Source: Anaeromyxobacter soli
GTDB taxonomy: Bacteria > Myxococcota > Myxococcia > Myxococcales > Anaeromyxobacteraceae
Assembly (NCBI RefSeq): GCF_022808855.1
Contig: NZ_JAKZLF010000008.1
Span: 79,120-143,119 of the forward strand
Direction of reading: 5' to 3'
DNA: 64,000 nt
Shown: piece by piece, positions 2,750 through 46,773 of the stretch
Layout of the letters: every line of letters begins with the position of its first letter
Position numbering within the stretch: position 1 is the first letter of the stretch
Notes under the pieces: model-generated
The model's database searches: none
What the model saw: only the letters and a program-made list of their open reading frames with translations
What the model was told of the DNA's origin: nothing
Made by a program: the position numbers and the translations under genes

Positions 2750-3919
2750 ATGATCCGCGGCGAGCGGGTGGCGGCGATCCTGGCGGCAGGCGGCTCCGGC
2801 GTGCGCGCCGGGGTCCGAAAGCAGTGGCTCGAGGTCGGGGGCGAGACGGTCCTGCGGCGCGCGGCGCGCGTGCTCGCCGGCTGCGACTCCGTCGACGAGC
2901 TCGTGGCGGTGGTGCCCGCCGGCGAGGAGGAGCGCGGGCTCGCCGAGCTGGCAGGGCTCGGGAAGCCGGCGCGGGCTGTCGTGGGCGGCGCCGCGCGCGC
3001 CGACTCGGTGCGGAACGGCGTGCGCGCGGCGGACGGCTGCGGGATCGTGCTCGTGCACGACGCCGCCCGGCCGTTCGCGACCGCGGAGCTCGCGACGCGC
3101 GTGGCGGAGGCGGCGGCGCGCGACGGGGCGGCCCTGGCGGCCCTCCCGGTCACGGACACGGTGAAGCGGGCCGCGGCCCGCGCCGACGCCGCCGCGCCCG
3201 CGCGGGTCGAGGCGACGCTCGACCGGCGTGCGCTCTGGCTCGCGCAGACACCCCAGGGGTTCCGGCGGGCCCTGCTCCTCGAGGCGTTCGAGCGGGCGGG
3301 GGCCGCGGCGGCCGAGGCCACGGACGAGTGCGCGCTCGTCGAGGCCATGGGGGCGACCGTGACGCTCGTGCCCGGGGAGCCGGGGAACTTCAAGATCACC
3401 GGGCCCGAGGACGTCGCCCGGGCCCGGACCTTCCTCGAGGCCCCCGTGGCGATGGGGGTCGGCTACGACACCCACCGGTTCGCGGAGGGGCGCAGGCTCG
3501 TGCTCGGCGGCGTCGAGTTCGACGGGGACGGCCTCCTCGGCCACTCCGACGCGGACGTGTGCGCCCACGCCATCGGCGACGCGATCCTGGGCGCGGCCGG
3601 GCTCGGCGATCTCGGCCGCCACTTCCCCGACACCGACCCGCGCTGGAAGGGGGTCTCCTCGCTCGCGCTGCTCCGCGAGATCGCCGCGAAGGCGGCCGCC
3701 CGGGGCCTCCGGGTCGGGAACTGCGACGTGACGCTCGCGGCCCGGCGGCCCAAGATCGCGCCGCGCGCCGAGGAGATGCGCGCGCGGCTCGCCGAGGCGC
3801 TCGGCGTCGCGCCCGCGCAGGTGAACGTGAAGGCCACCACGGGCGAGGGGATGGGCTTCGTCGGGCGCGGCGAGGGGATCGCCGCGCACGCCGTCGCGCT
3901 CCTCGTCAGAGTGCGGTAG
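2750..3919 (+). CDS. ispDF: Bifunctional IspD-IspF of the MEP isoprenoid pathway
   Basis: A fusion of two enzymes of the non-mevalonate pathway. The N-terminal half is IspD (MEP cytidylyltransferase): AAILAAGGSGVRAGVRKQW nucleotide loop, VHDAARPF, LAQTPQGF and DECALVEAMG. From about residue 232 the IspF half (MECDP synthase) begins with MGVGYDTHRF and HSDADVCAHAIGDAILG, carrying the metal-binding Asp and His residues, and ends with VNVKATTGEGMGFVGRGEGI. The ATG at 2750 is preferred because GAGGAG lies just upstream and the conserved fold starts at once; a GTG at 2693 in the same frame would add 19 unconserved residues. Cys-tRNA synthetase follows after 11 bases. IspE is not in the window. Confidence 0.93.
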   Translation: MIRGERVAAILAAGGSGVRAGVRKQWLEVGGETVLRRAARVLAGCDSVDELVAVVPAGEEERGLAELAGLGKPARAVVGGAARADSVRNGVRAADGCGIVLVHDAARPFATAELATRVAEAAARDGAALAALPVTDTVKRAAARADAAAPARVEATLDRRALWLAQTPQGFRRALLLEAFERAGAAAAEATDECALVEAMGATVTLVPGEPGNFKITGPEDVARARTFLEAPVAMGVGYDTHRFAEGRRLVLGGVEFDGDGLLGHSDADVCAHAIGDAILGAAGLGDLGRHFPDTDPRWKGVSSLALLREIAAKAAARGLRVGNCDVTLAARRPKIAPRAEEMRARLAEALGVAPAQVNVKATTGEGMGFVGRGEGIAAHAVALLVRVR

Positions 3920-35701: not shown

Positions 35702-37798
35702 ATGGCGGACCTTCTGTTCGAGATCGGCGCGGAGGAGATCCCGGCGGGCTTCGTGCCGCCGGCGCTCAAGCAGCTCGAGGAGGATCTCGCGAAGGCGCTC
35801 GACGCCGCGCGGCTCTCCCACGGCGAGGTGAAGGCCGTCGGCACCCCGCGGCGGCTCGCCGTGTGGGCGCGCGACGTCGCGAAGCGCCAGACCGACGCCA
35901 AGACGGAGGCGTTCGGGCCGCCCGTGGCCCAGGCGTTCGACGCGGGCGGCAACCCCACGCCGGCCGCGCTCGGGTTCGCGAAGAGCCAGGGCGTGGAGGT
36001 GTCGAAGCTCGAGCGGGCCCAGACGCCGAAGGGCGAGCGGGTCGCGGTGACGAAGGTGGAGAAGGGGCGCAGGGCGGAGCAGGTCCTGCCCGAGCTCCTC
36101 GAGCGGCTCCTCGCGGGCCTCCGCTTCAGGAAGGCGATGCGCTCGCGCTTCGACGACGCGACCTTCGCGCGCCCGATCCGCTGGATGGTCGCGCTCTACG
36201 GCGGCCGGCCGCTGAAGGTCCGCCACGGCGAGATCGTCTCCGGGAAGGTGACGTTCGGGCACCGCTTCGCCGCGCCCAAGGCGATCGCGCTCGCGGGGAC
36301 CCCGGAGGACTACGTCGCGAAGCTCCGCCGGGCGAAGGTCCTCGCCGATCCGGTCGAGCGGCGCGCGGTCCTCGAGCTCGAGCTCGCGAAGGCCGCCAAG
36401 GCGGCCGGGGGCAAGATCCGGCCGGACGAGCCGCTCGTCGAGCAGGTGCTGTACCTCGTCGAGCACCCGACCGGCGTCGCGGGCGAGTTCGAGCGGTCGA
36501 ACCTCGACCTGCCGCCCGAGGTGGTCGTCTCCGAGATGCGGAACCACCAGCGCTACTTCGCGGTGGTGGACGGGAAGGGCCGGCTCAAGAACCGGTTCGT
36601 CGCGATCTCCGGCACGCCGGTGAGGGACCCGAAGGTCGCCCGCCACGGCTACGAGCGCGTGCTGCGCGCGCGGCTCGCGGACGCCCGGTTCTTCTTCGAG
36701 GAGGACAAGCGCCGGCCCCTGCGCGATCGCATCGAGGACCTCGGGCGGCGCACGTTCCAGGCGCGGCTCGGGAGCGAGCTCGCGCGCACCGACCGCATCG
36801 TGGCGATCGCGAGCGCGCTCGCCAAGGCCGTCGACCGGGAGGACCTCGTGCCCGACGTGGTCGAGGCCGCGCGGCTCGCCAAGACCGACCTCACCACCGG
36901 CATGGTCGGCGAGTTCCCCGAGCTGCAGGGGGTCATGGGCGGCCACTACGCCCGGCTCGAGGGCCTGAAGCCGGAGATCGCGGACGCGATCGAGGATCAC
37001 TACCGGCCGGTGGGGGCCTCGGGAGAGATGCCCCGGGGCGACGTCGGCGCGCTCGTCGCGATCGCGGACCGGCTCCACTCGCTCGTCGGGATCGTCGGCG
37101 TGGGCGAGAAGGCCACCGGCGCCGCCGACCCGTTCGGCCTGCGCCGCGCCACCATCGGCATCCTCCGCATCCTGCTCGCCCGCGGGTATCACCTGTCGCT
37201 CTCCGCGGCGGTCGAGCAGACGCTCGACGCGCTCGCGGGGGTGAGCCTCGCGGCCGATCGTGCCGTGATCGCGGAGCAGGTGCTCGACTTCGTCCGCGGG
37301 CGGCTGCGCGCGCTGTGGAGCGACGAGCTCGACGGCGACCTCGTGGACGCGGTGCTCGCCGCGGGCTTCGACGACGTGGTGGACGCGCGCCGGCGCCTCG
37401 AGGCGCTCGCGCAGGTGAAGGCGCGGCCCGACTTCGTGCCGCTCGCGCTGGCGTTCAAGCGCGTCGCGAACATCCAGGAGAAGGCCGGGGGCGGGACGGG
37501 GGCGGCGGTGGATCCCCACCTCCTGCGCGAGGAGGCCGAGCGCCACCTGCTGGCGGAGCTCGAGCGCGTCGAGGCGGAGGCTGCGACTCTCCGTACGACC
37601 CGCGACTACCCGGGCGTGCTGCGGAACGTCGCCGAGCTCGAGCCCGCGGTCGCGCGGTTCTTCGACGACGTGCTCGTCATGGCGGAGGATCCGCAGGTCC
37701 GCGCGAACCGGCTCGGGCTCATGCGGCGGGTCGCGGCGCTCTTCTCCGGCGTCGCAGACTTCCGGAAGATCCAGGCCGAGGCGCCGGCCCAGGCGTGA
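35702..37798 (+). CDS. glyS: Glycyl-tRNA synthetase beta subunit
   Basis: 698 residues, the tRNA-binding beta subunit paired with glyQ. Visible: MADLLFEIGAEEIPAGFVPPALKQL, FGPPVAQAFD, the HHxxxH-like region VVVSEMRNHQRYFAV, LARTDRIVAIAS, LAKTDLTTGMVGEFPELQGVMGGHYA (GEFPELQG signature), DRLHSLVGIVGVGEKATGAADPFGLRR and a C-terminal anticodon-binding-like part ending FFDDVLVMAEDPQVRANRLGLMRRVA. Length is standard. A promoter for the next gene begins 12 bases after the stop. Confidence 0.96.
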   Translation: MADLLFEIGAEEIPAGFVPPALKQLEEDLAKALDAARLSHGEVKAVGTPRRLAVWARDVAKRQTDAKTEAFGPPVAQAFDAGGNPTPAALGFAKSQGVEVSKLERAQTPKGERVAVTKVEKGRRAEQVLPELLERLLAGLRFRKAMRSRFDDATFARPIRWMVALYGGRPLKVRHGEIVSGKVTFGHRFAAPKAIALAGTPEDYVAKLRRAKVLADPVERRAVLELELAKAAKAAGGKIRPDEPLVEQVLYLVEHPTGVAGEFERSNLDLPPEVVVSEMRNHQRYFAVVDGKGRLKNRFVAISGTPVRDPKVARHGYERVLRARLADARFFFEEDKRRPLRDRIEDLGRRTFQARLGSELARTDRIVAIASALAKAVDREDLVPDVVEAARLAKTDLTTGMVGEFPELQGVMGGHYARLEGLKPEIADAIEDHYRPVGASGEMPRGDVGALVAIADRLHSLVGIVGVGEKATGAADPFGLRRATIGILRILLARGYHLSLSAAVEQTLDALAGVSLAADRAVIAEQVLDFVRGRLRALWSDELDGDLVDAVLAAGFDDVVDARRRLEALAQVKARPDFVPLALAFKRVANIQEKAGGGTGAAVDPHLLREEAERHLLAELERVEAEAATLRTTRDYPGVLRNVAELEPAVARFFDDVLVMAEDPQVRANRLGLMRRVAALFSGVADFRKIQAEAPAQA

Positions 37799-37809
37799 GC
37801 ATCCCGACC

Positions 37810-37839
37810 TTGACCGGCTCCCGACCCCGCGGCTACGGT
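37810..37839 (+). promoter_or_regulatory. Promoter of the lipoprotein pair
   Basis: TTGACC (37810-37815, five of six), an 18-base spacer and TACGGT (37834-37839). Transcription would start near 37846, leaving about 6 bases before the GTG at 37852. This is one of the better -35/-10 pairs in the window. Confidence 0.55.
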
Positions 37840-37851
37840 TCGCGCTCACCC

Positions 37852-39156
37852 GTGCCCGCCCACGTCAGAAACGCGCTCCTCGCCGCCGCCGCCGCAGCGC
37901 TGGCAGCCTGCGGCACCCCGCCGTCCGCCGACCCGGCTCCGCTCGACCGGTTCAGCGCGCCCATCGCCCTCGGGATGTCGGGGAGCGACCTGCTCGTCGT
38001 CTCCTCCAACTTCGAGCTCGCCTACGGGCTCGACGACGGCGGGAGCGTCATCCCGGTCGACGTGCAGGCGTCCCCGAGCACCTTCGGGAAGGGCGTCCGC
38101 ATCGCCAGCTTCGCGGGGGAGCTCTCCGTCGCCGACGCAGCGGCCTGCGGGCTACCCGAGTCGCTCGCGCTCGTCCCCGCGCGCGAGGGGAACGCGCTCT
38201 ATCGCATCGGCGTCGGCGCCGGCGGCGAGCTGTCCTGCGGCGCCGGGTGCCGCCTGCCGCTGCGCAGCGACGTGGCGGACGCGTACGGCGTCCTCGCCGT
38301 GTGCCGCCCGCCCGCCGTCGCCGGCGGCGAGCCGCGGGCGCGCGCGTACGTCGGCTTCCTGCGCACGCCGGGGAGCCGCGGCCAGATCTCCGAGGTAGAC
38401 CTCCGGACCGGCGCCACCCGCAACCGGGACGTCGGGCTCGGGCCGGTGCGCAGCTTCGCCTACGACGCGCAGACCGACCGGCTCTTCTTCACCGCCATCG
38501 AGAGCGGCACGACCGCGCCGTTCCGCTGGCTCGACCTGGCGGGCGACTGCGCGATCGACGCGGCCGTCTCGGAGGGCGGCTGCCCGGTGTTCGGCATGGA
38601 CCTCGCGGTGTTCCTCCGCGGAGTCGAGGCGCGCGGCATGGCGCTGTCGAACCCGCAGGACGGCCGGACGCGCCGCGCGTACGTCGCGGCGCGCGTCTAC
38701 AACGCCGATCTCGCCGGCGCGATCGGGGGGCGTCCGGGGTTCGACGTGGGAGGCGTGCTCCTCGTCATCGACCTCGTCGAGGAGCGGTCCGGCCTCCAGC
38801 CACGCGTCGTCGGGATCTACGACGTGGGGCTCGGCGCGAACGAGGTGAAGGTGCTGCCGCCGAGGCCGGGGATGGGCGATCTCGTCGCGGTCACCGCCTC
38901 CGACGACGGGCTCCTCTGGATCTACGACGACGAGCAGGGCGCGCTCGTGCGCGTGATCGGGCGCGATCCCCACACCGGGATCCCGCTGTTCGGGCGGCAG
39001 CCGTTCGGCCTCGCCGTCCGCGACGACGGGGCCAAGGCGCGCCTGTTCGTCTCCTCCTTCAAGGACGGGTTCGTGACGCCCATCGACATCCCGCTCGACG
39101 CGCCGTGGACCGCGGCGGACCCGCGCGTCGAGGACCGGATCGGGGTGACGCCGTGA
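37852..39156 (+). CDS. Large lipoprotein A, beta-propeller-like, unknown function
   Basis: 434 residues. The signal ALLAAAAAALAACGT has the lipidated Cys at residue 20 and no Asp after it, fitting outer-membrane sorting. The mature part is a run of beta-strand blocks: IALGMSGSDLLVVSSNFELAYGLDDGGSVIPVDV, ISEVDLRTGATRNRDVGLGPVRSFAYDAQTDRLFFTAIES, GVLLVIDLVEERS and LVAVTASDDGLLWIYDDEQGALVRVIGRDPHTGIPLFGRQPFGLAV. These look like propeller blades. Several Cys suggest disulfides. No family recognised. The GTG start is inferred from the signal peptide. The stop overlaps the next gene's GTG (GTGA). Confidence 0.75.
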   Translation: MPAHVRNALLAAAAAALAACGTPPSADPAPLDRFSAPIALGMSGSDLLVVSSNFELAYGLDDGGSVIPVDVQASPSTFGKGVRIASFAGELSVADAAACGLPESLALVPAREGNALYRIGVGAGGELSCGAGCRLPLRSDVADAYGVLAVCRPPAVAGGEPRARAYVGFLRTPGSRGQISEVDLRTGATRNRDVGLGPVRSFAYDAQTDRLFFTAIESGTTAPFRWLDLAGDCAIDAAVSEGGCPVFGMDLAVFLRGVEARGMALSNPQDGRTRRAYVAARVYNADLAGAIGGRPGFDVGGVLLVIDLVEERSGLQPRVVGIYDVGLGANEVKVLPPRPGMGDLVAVTASDDGLLWIYDDEQGALVRVIGRDPHTGIPLFGRQPFGLAVRDDGAKARLFVSSFKDGFVTPIDIPLDAPWTAADPRVEDRIGVTP

Positions 39157-41720
39157 AGAGACGGCTGGCCTTCCTCGCGCTCGCGGCCCTGGCCGCGTGC
39201 GGAAAGAGCAGCACCTCCATCGGCGTCGGGCTCTCGGGGCCGTCGTCGGTGGTGGCGTACAACGGCTTCACGCCCAAGAACGCCGGGCTGCACCCGTACT
39301 TCGCCATCGCGAACGCCGCGCGCTCGGACCTGACCCTCGTCGACGCGGTGGACGACGCGCCGGTCCTCGCGCCCGTCATCGTCCGCTCGCTCGCCGTGCC
39401 GGTTCCGGATCCGCGCCCCACGCTGCTCGCCGCGTCGTCGCTCTGGGACGGCACCGGGGACGCCGCGAAGGCGGACCTCCTCGTCGTCGCGTCGGCCGCG
39501 GTGCCGGCGCTGCAGCTCGTCGAGACCTGGAACGCGTCGGCCCGCATCGTGGACGAGGCCGACCTCGCCGCGCTCGCGCCCGGCGCCGCGATCGTGGCCC
39601 TCGCCGCGATCCCGGTGCCGGACGGCGCCAGCCCTCCCGGCCGGACCCCGGGCCGCGTCCGCGTCGTCGCCGCTCTCACCGGCGCCCGGCTGGCGATCGT
39701 CGAGTACTCGCGGGCAGCGGACGGCCCGGGGATCGTGCGCGGAGAGGCCTCGGTGCGCTCCCTCGACGCCGGCGGCGCTCCGTTCGACGTCGTCTCGCTC
39801 GCGATGAACCCCCACGACCCGCTCCACCTGTACGCCGCGTCCCCCGATCCGATCGGCGCGGTGGAGGGCGTCGCCGAGATCACGGTGGCAGGTGCGCCCG
39901 CCGACTGGACGATCCGCGCGCTCGACGCCCGCGCGCCGACGCGGTTCGTGGCCGCGGCGCGCCTGCAGGAGCGGCTCACGGAGTGGCCCTCGGCCATCTA
40001 CGGCGCCTTCTACGACGACACCAGCGAGTTCCAGGCCACGGCCGTGGATCGCGTCTACGCCGTGGTCGATCCGACGCGCTGCGGGCCGAACCACCGCATC
40101 GGCTGCGGCATCGCGGTCATCGATCCGGCGACCGGCGGCATCGTTCCGGACTACGCCGGCCTCATGCCGTACCTGGCGCCGATCACGCTGCCGGAGTTCC
40201 CGCTCGGGCTGGCCGTCGCGGAGCCTCCCGCCACGCCGCCGCCGGGCGAGGAGGCCCTCTTCCCGAGCGGGTTCATGAAGATCGCGCCCGGCACCGGGCG
40301 CCGCGCCACGACCGCCGTCGCGGCGATCCCGTCCGCGAACGGGCGGATCTACTACGCCGATCTGGGCCGGTACGCCGTCCCGAACGACCTGTCGATCATC
40401 CGCGCGAAGACCAAGACGCGCGTCACGACCGGCCTCGCGCTCGGAACGACGGTGGAGGGCGAGGACCACCCGCGCATCTTCGGCATCTGGTTCCTCGACG
40501 GCGAGACCTGGAAGCTCGGGTACGACACCACCGAGATCCAGAAGGGCGTGCACGTGACGCCCGGGTTCACTGGCAGCGAGACCTGGGTGGTCTCGTTCCA
40601 GGGGCTGCTCCCGGGGCTCGAGGCGCACCGCGGCCAGACCGGCGCCACGGCCGGCGGCGGGACCTGGGTCGCCATGCAGGTCCCGGTGACCGGCTCGGGC
40701 GCCACGCCGTTCACCGAGGTGGTGCGCGTCTACGACCCCACGTTCGCCGTGCGGGTGGGGGACCTCGCCGAGATCTACGCCCCCGCCGTCGCGGGCTGTC
40801 CCAGCGACGCCGCCATCGAGGCCCGGGTGACGGAGCTCCTGCCGCCCGCCGACGCCTACCCGGGCGGCGCGCTCGCGCTCGAGCCGCTCGACGACCCGCG
40901 ACCCAAGGTGAACACGGACGGCTCGGTCGGCCCGTGGCGCGACTGGCCCGCGTGCCTCCAGGCGCTCCGCGCAGGGGCCGTCGGCGTCCAGGCCCGCGTG
41001 CGCGCCTCGGGGCTCATGCTGACCGGGACCGCGAGCGGCTACGCCGGGCGGCCGGAGCTCGTGCCGGCGGCGGACGTCGCCACCACGCCCGACTTCGCGC
41101 TGCAGTACGAGGACGAGGACGCCCTCGCGGCGCAGTGCCCGCTCCTGCCCTGGCCGGCCGACTGGCGGACCCCGCCCGCCGGTTTCAGCACCTGCGACGC
41201 CGCGTGCCGGCTCGTCTGCGAGCGGCTGGTGCTGGCTCGCAAGGCGCGCCGCATCTACCACGTGTCCGACCAGTGTCACGGCACCGAGGCCGCCCCTGGC
41301 GACGACCTGGAGTGCTACCAGGCCTGGCCCGCGGCGCTCTATCCGTTCCCGCGGGCGAACGGGCCCGTCATCTCCTTCAAGGTCGGCTATCACGGCTCGG
41401 TGGCGGAGGGGGAGGTCTTCCCCGCGGACGACCACACGCTCTGGAGCCAGCTGCGGCTCCTGCAGACCTCCGCCGTCACCGTCAGCGGGATCGCCCCGAG
41501 CTCCCGCGGGCCGACCTCCCCGACCTCGACGGCCGCGGTCCTGCCGCTCGCCGTCTCGAGCTTCGATCGCAGCGCCATCGCCGGCGAGGCCGGCCTCTCC
41601 GCGGACACCCGGAAGCGTCTCCTCACCGAGGGCTACCGGTTCCTCGTCCCGTACGCGAACGACTTCGTGCTCGACTTCAGCCCGAGCGAGCCGGTGAACA
41701 CCATCAAGGTGATCCGATGA
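39153..41720 (+). CDS. Large lipoprotein B, unknown function
   Basis: 855 residues. The signal RRLAFLALAALAACGKSS places the lipidated Cys at residue 16. The mature part is rich in beta-strands; early blocks (PHDPLHLYAASPDPIGAVEGVAEITV, FYDDTSEFQATAVDRVYAVVDPTRCGPNHRIGCGIAVIDPATGGIVPDYAG) again resemble propeller blades. The C-terminal third has a Cys cluster, FSTCDAACRLVCERL, and IYHVSDQCHGTE, and ends VLDFSPSEPVNTIKVI. No enzyme motif is visible. Overlapping starts with lipoprotein A imply that the two are made in equal amounts and may form a complex on the cell surface, which is inference. The RHH-FHA gene follows after 49 bases. Confidence 0.75.
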   Translation: MKRRLAFLALAALAACGKSSTSIGVGLSGPSSVVAYNGFTPKNAGLHPYFAIANAARSDLTLVDAVDDAPVLAPVIVRSLAVPVPDPRPTLLAASSLWDGTGDAAKADLLVVASAAVPALQLVETWNASARIVDEADLAALAPGAAIVALAAIPVPDGASPPGRTPGRVRVVAALTGARLAIVEYSRAADGPGIVRGEASVRSLDAGGAPFDVVSLAMNPHDPLHLYAASPDPIGAVEGVAEITVAGAPADWTIRALDARAPTRFVAAARLQERLTEWPSAIYGAFYDDTSEFQATAVDRVYAVVDPTRCGPNHRIGCGIAVIDPATGGIVPDYAGLMPYLAPITLPEFPLGLAVAEPPATPPPGEEALFPSGFMKIAPGTGRRATTAVAAIPSANGRIYYADLGRYAVPNDLSIIRAKTKTRVTTGLALGTTVEGEDHPRIFGIWFLDGETWKLGYDTTEIQKGVHVTPGFTGSETWVVSFQGLLPGLEAHRGQTGATAGGGTWVAMQVPVTGSGATPFTEVVRVYDPTFAVRVGDLAEIYAPAVAGCPSDAAIEARVTELLPPADAYPGGALALEPLDDPRPKVNTDGSVGPWRDWPACLQALRAGAVGVQARVRASGLMLTGTASGYAGRPELVPAADVATTPDFALQYEDEDALAAQCPLLPWPADWRTPPAGFSTCDAACRLVCERLVLARKARRIYHVSDQCHGTEAAPGDDLECYQAWPAALYPFPRANGPVISFKVGYHGSVAEGEVFPADDHTLWSQLRLLQTSAVTVSGIAPSSRGPTSPTSTAAVLPLAVSSFDRSAIAGEAGLSADTRKRLLTEGYRFLVPYANDFVLDFSPSEPVNTIKVIR

Positions 41721-41769
41721 GCTCGGCGGCGCGCGACGGGGGGCCTCGCGGGCGCCCGGGAGCGCTCGC

Positions 41770-42405
41770 ATGAAGACGGTCCGGCAGGTCGCGATCGCCG
41801 ACCACCTGTGGGAGGCGCTCGAGCGGATGGCGGAGGAGATGGGCTCCGACCGCGAGGCGCTCGTGAACCAGGCGGTCCACGTGTTCATGCGGCTCAACGG
41901 CTACGTGGTCCCCGGCAGCGTCGCCGCGACCACGCGCCCGGGGGCCCCGCCTCCGGCGGCCGGGGCGCCCGTGCTGCCGCGGGCCGAGCGCGCCGTCGTG
42001 GCGGAGCAGGTGCTCGACACGGCCGCGCGGCTCGAGCGCGAGATGCGCGCGCCCCCGCCGGTGCCGGCCGCCGTCGCGGCGGCTCCGGCCGCCTCGCCTG
42101 CGCCGTCGGCCGCGGCGGGCGTCGCGTCCGCGCTCGTGCTCGTGCGCGACGACGGCACCGAGGTGCCGGTCGCGAAGGATCGCTTCGTCATCGGCCGGGG
42201 ACGGCACTGCGACCTCGTCGTGGACAGCGCGAAGGTGTCCCGCGAGCACGTCGCCATCGTGCGCGAGGGGCCGGGCTGGCTCATCGAGGACCTCGGCTCG
42301 TCGAACGGCACGTGGTTCCGGCGCGAGCGGATCGCCCGCCGGCGCATCGAGGACGGCGACGAGTACTTCGTGTGCGCCGAGCGGCTGCGCTGCGCGCTGC
42401 GGTGA
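41770..42405 (+). CDS. RHH-FHA fusion protein
   Basis: 211 residues in three parts. Residues 1-50 (VRQVAIADHLWEALERMAEEMGSDREALVNQAVHVFMRLNGY) resemble a ribbon-helix-helix DNA-binding domain. Residues 50-115 are an Ala/Pro linker. The C-terminal part is a forkhead-associated domain: FVIGRGRHCDLVVDSAKVSREHVAIVREGPGWLIEDLGSSNGTWF, with the Arg, Ser-x-x-His and Asn-Gly that bind phosphothreonine. It could be a transcription regulator steered by a Ser/Thr kinase, a type of kinase common in myxobacteria. No kinase gene is in the window. The ATG at 41770 is chosen as the RHH strand starts there; the upstream two lipoprotein genes are likely co-transcribed. Confidence 0.8.
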   Translation: MKTVRQVAIADHLWEALERMAEEMGSDREALVNQAVHVFMRLNGYVVPGSVAATTRPGAPPPAAGAPVLPRAERAVVAEQVLDTAARLEREMRAPPPVPAAVAAAPAASPAPSAAAGVASALVLVRDDGTEVPVAKDRFVIGRGRHCDLVVDSAKVSREHVAIVREGPGWLIEDLGSSNGTWFRRERIARRRIEDGDEYFVCAERLRCALR

Positions 42406-42507
42406 GGCGTCCCTCGCGCGGGCCCTGGGCCGCGACGTTTCCGCCGCACCGCCTCGCGACTCGCGGGCGCGCCGCGTTTTCCCGCTGCCCGCGCCGGCGC
42501 GTGGGAC

Positions 42508-42513
42508 TATCGT
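42508..42513 (+). promoter_or_regulatory. -10-like element before polA
   Basis: TATCGT in otherwise GC-only DNA, ending 11 bases before the polA ATG. No Shine-Dalgarno sequence lies between. The -35 is not recognisable. Confidence 0.35.
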
Positions 42514-42523
42514 TCCGTCCCGC

Positions 42524-45843: not shown

Positions 45844-46773
45844 GTGCTCACCCAGGAGAACGTGGACGACATCCTCGCTCGCGCCGCCTTCCGGACGCGG
45901 GCCGAGGTCGAGCACCTCGTCGTCTCCGTCCAGGCCCGCACCGCTCCGCGCGCAGGCGTCCGCAAGCTGGCCGAGCGCGCGCCCGCCGCAGCGAGCGCAG
46001 CGCTACCGCTCCCGGCGTCCGATGCAGGCGCCGAGGCGGCGCCAGTGGCCGGCCCTGCTGAACCGACCCTCGGCCCGGACCCCATCGCCGACTCGCGGCC
46101 TGCGCTCCCGCCCACCGTCGCGCAGCCGAAGCGAAGGGCCGAGACGCTCGCCGTCTCGGAGACGCACTGGTCGCTTCGGGTCACCCTCGACCGCGCCTGC
46201 AAGGAGGACCTCGAGACGCTCCGGTCACTCCTGTCGCACAAGGTTCCGGACGGCGACCTCGCGGCGGTGCTCCACGAGGCGATCCGCTGCGCCATCGAGA
46301 AGCACGGCAAGCGCAAGGGCGCTGCCGCGCCGGAGCGGAAGACGAAGGACGCGAAGGAAGGTTCGAAGGAGTGCGCGAAGGAGGGCTCCGAGGAAGGCTC
46401 GAACAGGGGCGCGAAGCAGGTCGCGGCGAAGCCGCCGGGGGCGAGGCCCACGATCCCGGCGATAGTTCGCCGCGCCGTGTGGAAGCGCGACGGCGGGCGC
46501 TGCGCCTGGGTCGGTCCGGACGGCTGCGGCTGTAACAGCCGTTGGAAGCTCGAGCTCGACCACATCCGACCCGTCGCCCTCGGGGGACTGTCGACGATCG
46601 ACAATCTTCGGCTCGCCTGCCGAGCCCACAATCTTCTCCACGCAGAGAACACCTTCGGGCGCGAGCACATGGATCACTTCCGCCGCGACGCGAGCGCCGG
46701 GCCGACGCCGCTCTCTGGCGCTGGCGTGGCACCTCTGCGTCCCGTCATGCAGCTGGGGATGTGGGCGCCGTGA
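45844..46773 (+). pseudogene. HNH endonuclease, N-terminally truncated
   Basis: 309 residues from GTG 45844. The C-terminal HNH domain is intact: IPAIVRRAVWKRDGGRCAWVGPDGCGCNSRWKLELDHIRPVALGGLSTIDNLRLACRAHNLLHAENTFGREHM, with the Cys pair and the catalytic D-H and H-N. Ahead of it is the helical domain ETHWSLRVTLDRACKEDLETLRSLLSHKVPDGDLAAVLHEAIRCAIEKHGKRK. Family members from memory carry another ~120 N-terminal helical residues reaching a conserved LTPEN motif; here the frame starts exactly at LTQENVDDIL, and a stop lies just upstream. The Lys/Glu/Gly linker (KDAKEGSKECAKEGSEEGS) is unusual. It may still be translated; likely a transferred, decaying element. Confidence 0.65.

Follow-up and report, generated by a model that had tools for sequence, protein, structure and literature searches.

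A pair of predicted outer-membrane propeller lipoproteins and an RHH-FHA gene matching Myxococcus kil cluster 1, kept in Anaeromyxobacter without the Kil genes

The window, that is, the whole 64,000-nucleotide stretch of Anaeromyxobacter soli DNA analysed here, carries three consecutive forward-strand genes between glyS and polA. Gene A (37852..39156, GTG start, 434 aa) and gene B (39153..41720, GTG start, 855 aa) each encode a predicted outer-membrane lipoprotein, modelled as a seven-bladed YVTN-type beta-propeller, which in the case of B has a large insert. As the original prediction had stated, the two genes overlap by 4 bases, the stop codon of A and the start codon of B being joined in the sequence GTGA (39153..39156, forward strand), an arrangement that suggests translational coupling. 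After a gap of 49 bp (41721-41769), also described earlier, follows the RHH-FHA gene (41770..42405, 211 aa), with a candidate CopG-like ribbon-helix-helix (RHH) domain at its N-terminus (41770..41904) and an FHA domain (PF00498) at 42187..42363, both on the forward strand. The FHA gene and polA are separated by 118 bp (42406..42523, forward strand), the site at which kilA-kilC-kilF-kilD lie in Myxococcus. An open reading frame downstream of polA in the window (45844-46773) carries an HNH-nuclease-like motif at its C-terminus (CAWVGPDGCGC...LELDHIRPVALGG).

A promoter had been proposed ahead of gene A, and the sigma-70-like element is present on the forward strand at 37810..37839, with TTGACC at 37810-37815, an 18-bp spacer, and TACGGT at 37834-37839. 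When the glyS-A spacers were aligned, the strict pattern was found upstream of A in 11/17 Anaeromyxobacteraceae loci at a near-constant distance from the gene, and the spacer sequences differ among the loci. Because the same strict pattern matches just twice when both strands of the window (64 kb) are scanned, and this site is one of the two matches, the promoter is more than a chance occurrence. A promoter and terminator scan based on the E. coli consensus returned nothing, TTGACC-N18-TACGGT included. The GTG at 37852 lies 12 bp past the -10 box, so the gene A transcript is probably nearly leaderless, judging from this distance. Another GTG in the same frame, at 37795, overlaps the stop codon of glyS; a start there would place the conserved promoter within the gene, which makes it the less likely choice. 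No conserved operator was evident when the B-FHA and FHA-polA spacers were compared by eye.

The lipobox cysteine of the two proteins, which had been described as Cys-bearing lipoproteins, is conserved in 101/103 homologues of A and 104/105 homologues of B. Aspartate at position +2 is rare (five homologues of A and none of B), as expected for outer-membrane lipoproteins, and both proteins are predicted to belong to that class; MXAN_3103 is among the listed outer-membrane proteins of M. xanthus (PMC3222651). Searches of Pfam and NCBIfam at E-values up to 1 returned no family for the window's A or B, in agreement with the earlier failure to recognise one. Their propeller-like appearance is borne out by confident AlphaFold2 models of each protein singly, both of which are YVTN-type propellers (pLDDT 92.9 and pTM 0.91 for A, built on 49 sequences; pLDDT 86.5 and pTM 0.87 for B, built on 48 sequences). 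The model of A aligns with 5c2v_B and YncE at a VIA-align Z of 34, and its profile matches the archaeal S-layer YVTN propeller 1l0q at an E-value of 1.7e-15; A is thus predicted to be a seven-bladed propeller like YncE, the hydrazine synthase beta subunit, and the S-layer YVTN propeller. The model of B aligns with YncE at a Z of 29.5 over 287 residues that span model positions 24-844, and because so few residues of so long a range are aligned, B is modelled as a YncE-like propeller in which the C-terminus closes the ring around a large insert. In other words, the fold of the YVTN/YncE-type beta-propellers (E. coli YncE, 1l0q, and the hydrazine synthase beta subunit) is common to A and to the propeller part of B, whereas sequence identity to these proteins is only 13-17%, and A and B differ from them in being lipid-anchored, in forming a constant tandem pair, and in the large insert of B. 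Seven-bladed propellers serve many functions. For both A and B, Foldseek and VIA-align list many unrelated propellers (WD40 and others), so we have not read a function from these matches.

The third protein had been described as an RHH-FHA fusion. Its FHA domain is a standard one, with a match to PF00498 above the gathering score (E 2e-16) and an alignment in which conserved G, R, S, H, and N residues are present, including an invariant GRGxHC and conserved SREH and SxNGT motifs. The RHH part is weak by Pfam (RHH_1, E 0.022, in 2/23 members); the best PDB match of the N-terminal profile is CopG, in register, at an E-value of 0.0044, and a ribbon-helix-helix fold is therefore likely at this end of the protein. 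Through its FHA domain the protein resembles the FHA phosphopeptide-binding proteins and, through its RHH-like candidate motif, the CopG-type RHH regulators; it differs from them in that a variable Pro/Ala-rich linker joins the two parts into a single chain and in that the gene is linked to a lipoprotein operon.

The locus has a counterpart in Myxococcus. In M. xanthus AM003 the gene order is glyS-A-B-RHHFHA-KilA-KilC-KilF-KilD-polA, and the full order recurs in 27/80 loci of named genomes. kil cluster 1, which belongs to the Tad-like Kil prey-killing apparatus, comprises MXAN_3102-3108, with 3105-3107 being kilACF and 3108 being kilD, and its two predicted outer-membrane lipoproteins and FHA proteins have been listed as of unknown function (PMC8460266, PMC12075869). 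Because the AM003 order fits this scheme, A, B, and the FHA gene are, judged by gene order, the orthologues of MXAN_3102, MXAN_3103, and MXAN_3104, respectively; the tags were assigned by order and count, using the AM003 locus (L152) and the same two papers. The three genes, hereafter the trio, had been proposed as an undescribed module, which is not supported, since they are already listed in the literature as part of kil cluster 1. The literature searched does not name MXAN_3104, discusses MXAN_3102 only as the gene that opens the cluster, and yielded neither an individual study of MXAN_3102-3104 nor any biochemical or mutant results on A, B, or the FHA protein. What is new here is that the trio can be separated from Kil: the window shares the flanking order of the M. 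xanthus cluster, whereas kilA, kilC, kilF, and kilD are missing at the locus, and in the window genome FHA-KilF and KilD are lacking, a plain Tad operon elsewhere being all that was found. A complete Myxococcus-type glyS-A-B-FHA-KilACFD-polA locus also occurs in BNCN01000010.1, titled Comamonas sp. KCTC 72670, an assembly that is probably mislabelled or contaminated.

Among 195 Myxococcota genomes, A is present in 178 and B in 162, and only three have B without A. At all A loci examined whose downstream sequence could be read, B is the adjacent gene; these include 64/64 named loci (in which the A-B spacing, by aligned starts, is mostly -1 to +20 bp) and the outgroup-class loci examined. The co-occurrence anticipated for the three genes is seen in relatives: the A-B pair is constant, and outside the Anaeromyxobacteraceae genera that have lost it (g2, g3, and g6, together with genome G016), most Myxococcales have the RHH-FHA gene after B. 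Of the three, the FHA gene is the least constant, having been lost from several related genera in which A-B stays. Within the order, one family (f3) has A-B-RHHFHA together and apart from kilACFD, two families (f5 and f8) have the RHH-FHA gene with kilA and A-B elsewhere, and one (f6) has the Kil core after A-B with no RHH-FHA gene. In the outgroup-class loci examined, the gene that A-B follows is usually glyS or one resembling pyruvate-phosphate dikinase. Where A-B and KilF were both located in an outgroup-class genome, KilF is on another contig (G071, G080, G081, and G173) or 64 kb away (G171, in which A maps to C5:207 kb and KilF to C5:143 kb). In these distant classes, matches beyond about E 1e-20 could be paralogues of A and B rather than orthologues. 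By these arrangements, taken together, kil cluster 1 is a composite of three separable pieces, A-B, RHH-FHA, and kilACFD. Two further neighbourhoods may be mentioned: an LptD-like outer-membrane protein gene follows A-B-RHHFHA, in place of kil genes, at two f3 loci (L099 and L105), and glyS and A are separated by a pyruvate-phosphate-dikinase-like gene at three loci from other families or classes of the phylum (L236, L237, and L240).

The FHA-fused, CpaF-type ATPase KilF is absent from all Anaeromyxobacteraceae genomes searched. Genus g1 carries only a plain TadA (50%, no FHA), which in the window genome is at C4:26908-28173 (50%, residues 152-578), and g2, g5, and g6 have no Tad/Kil ATPase at E 1e-30, though A-B is kept in all of them. 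Neither the KilC secretin nor the KilA peptidase is found beside the window trio, where FHA and polA are 118 bp apart, and KilC/KilA-like genes of the window genome occur only in a separate plain Tad operon. This operon (C4:18000-37000) is an ordinary Tad pilus operon with TadA, a secretin, a prepilin peptidase, and TadB/C-like genes. In the window genome, in which alone KilD was searched for, the first 313 aa of KilD match only generic FHA proteins at 32-42%. The same state recurs in a Myxococcaceae clade of three genomes (G158, G123, and G157), where the order is glyS-A-B-FHA-polA (glyS being off the contig in G157); no Tad/Kil ATPase, KilF included, was found in G123 and G157 at 1e-100, nor in any of the three at 1e-20. 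A polA tree requires at least two changes of Kil state. Several of the Kil-less genomes are draft or metagenome-assembled, and absence was weighed by completeness (G012, 100%; G013, 99%; G017, 98%; G018, 98%; G157, 100%; and G123, 95%). On gene content, then, two lineages, the Anaeromyxobacteraceae and the Myxococcaceae clade, lost KilF but retained A-B and, in most cases, the FHA gene as well.

Between FHA and polA, at the position of kilC, A. oryzae and two g5 genomes encode a secreted protein of ~165 aa (about 9421-9918 in L121, and correspondingly in L124 and L125), in which two pil_N domains (PF13629) score above the gathering cut-off. Since KilC has this domain at its N-terminus, the protein fits a footprint of in-place Kil loss, by presumed descent from kilC, and favours loss of Kil over its never having been gained; it is probably either a remnant of those lost genes or a small, derived protein of the periplasm. 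The trio itself is under purifying selection in the window lineage. In comparisons of the window with its two nearest relatives, dN/dS is 0.28-0.35 for A, 0.40-0.43 for B, and 0.16-0.25 for the FHA gene, against 0.07-0.16 for housekeeping controls.

How, then, should the retention of the trio be explained? One might see in it no more than kil cluster 1 decaying in the Anaeromyxobacteraceae, for which the loss of the FHA gene in several genera and genomes, the double pil_N protein in three genomes, and the faster evolution of A and B than of housekeeping genes could be cited. We consider this very improbable, because A-B is intact at every readable locus of the family, the dN/dS values lie far under 1, and promoter, lipobox, and close spacing are all conserved. 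Alternatively, A and B could be genuine accessory components of Kil/Tad pili in the outer membrane, serving for instance in secretin or pilus docking, and be kept in Anaeromyxobacter for the ordinary Tad pilus. A-B is contiguous with kilACFD in several order families and in 27 intact named loci, and g1 genomes do carry a plain TadA, accompanied in the window genome by a nearby secretin and peptidase. The complete or near-complete g5 and g6 genomes, however, have A-B with no Tad/Kil ATPase, as do the Myxococcaceae genomes with A-B-FHA at the thresholds given above, and A-B and KilF are unlinked in the outgroup classes. Retention in two KilF-less lineages and the unlinked outgroup pair argue that the trio lies outside the machine proper, and we judge the accessory role unlikely.

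It is also conceivable that A works as a secreted enzyme with a propeller fold, lactonase- or YncE-like, or as an adhesin, with B as its partner and the FHA gene as an unrelated neighbour. The profile match to the S-layer propeller, the separability of the FHA gene from A-B, and the weak similarity of a few members to the Pfam Lactonase and NHL families would be in keeping with this; PF10282 (lactonase), for instance, matches 3/49 members, at best with an E-value of 0.0018, and does not match the window protein. No catalytic motif was recognised in A, and its invariant residues (V49, R111, C129, C133, R338, and D359) do not by themselves indicate an enzyme, which makes this reading rather improbable.

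We prefer, with a probability of roughly 60%, the reading that the locus encodes a co-translated complex of outer-membrane propeller lipoproteins with a Kil-independent envelope role, together with a putative phospho-responsive RHH-FHA regulator. As co-translated, lipid-anchored outer-membrane propellers, A and B would most likely assemble together and may act as a scaffold or receptor in the Myxococcota envelope. The pair would be older than its linkage to the kil genes, and the RHH-FHA protein would have joined it in the order Myxococcales. As an RHH dimer, this protein would probably bind DNA, and its FHA domain may read a Thr-phosphorylated partner, tying expression of the locus to Ser/Thr-kinase signalling. 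Complex formation, the envelope role, the membrane face, and regulation by the FHA protein are what we infer as most likely. In Myxococcus, where kil cluster 1 begins with the trio, its role may be linked to Kil; in the window lineage the killing machine would have been lost and the trio kept, so that its function there could not depend on Kil. A role without need of Kil in this lineage is well supported by gene content, and the trio probably has a separate cell-envelope job.

Seven genes are assigned to kil cluster 1 of the Myxococcus predation machine, and these observations bear on the three among them that have no known role. We put at about even odds the broader proposal that MXAN_3102-3103 and their relatives form a general outer-membrane complex, common to the phylum Myxococcota and with no part in killing, which would be counted in kil cluster 1 only through adjacency of the Kil core in Myxococcales, with the locus under phospho-responsive RHH-FHA regulation. 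The analysis points to an uncharacterised outer-membrane lipoprotein pair across nearly all Myxococcota.
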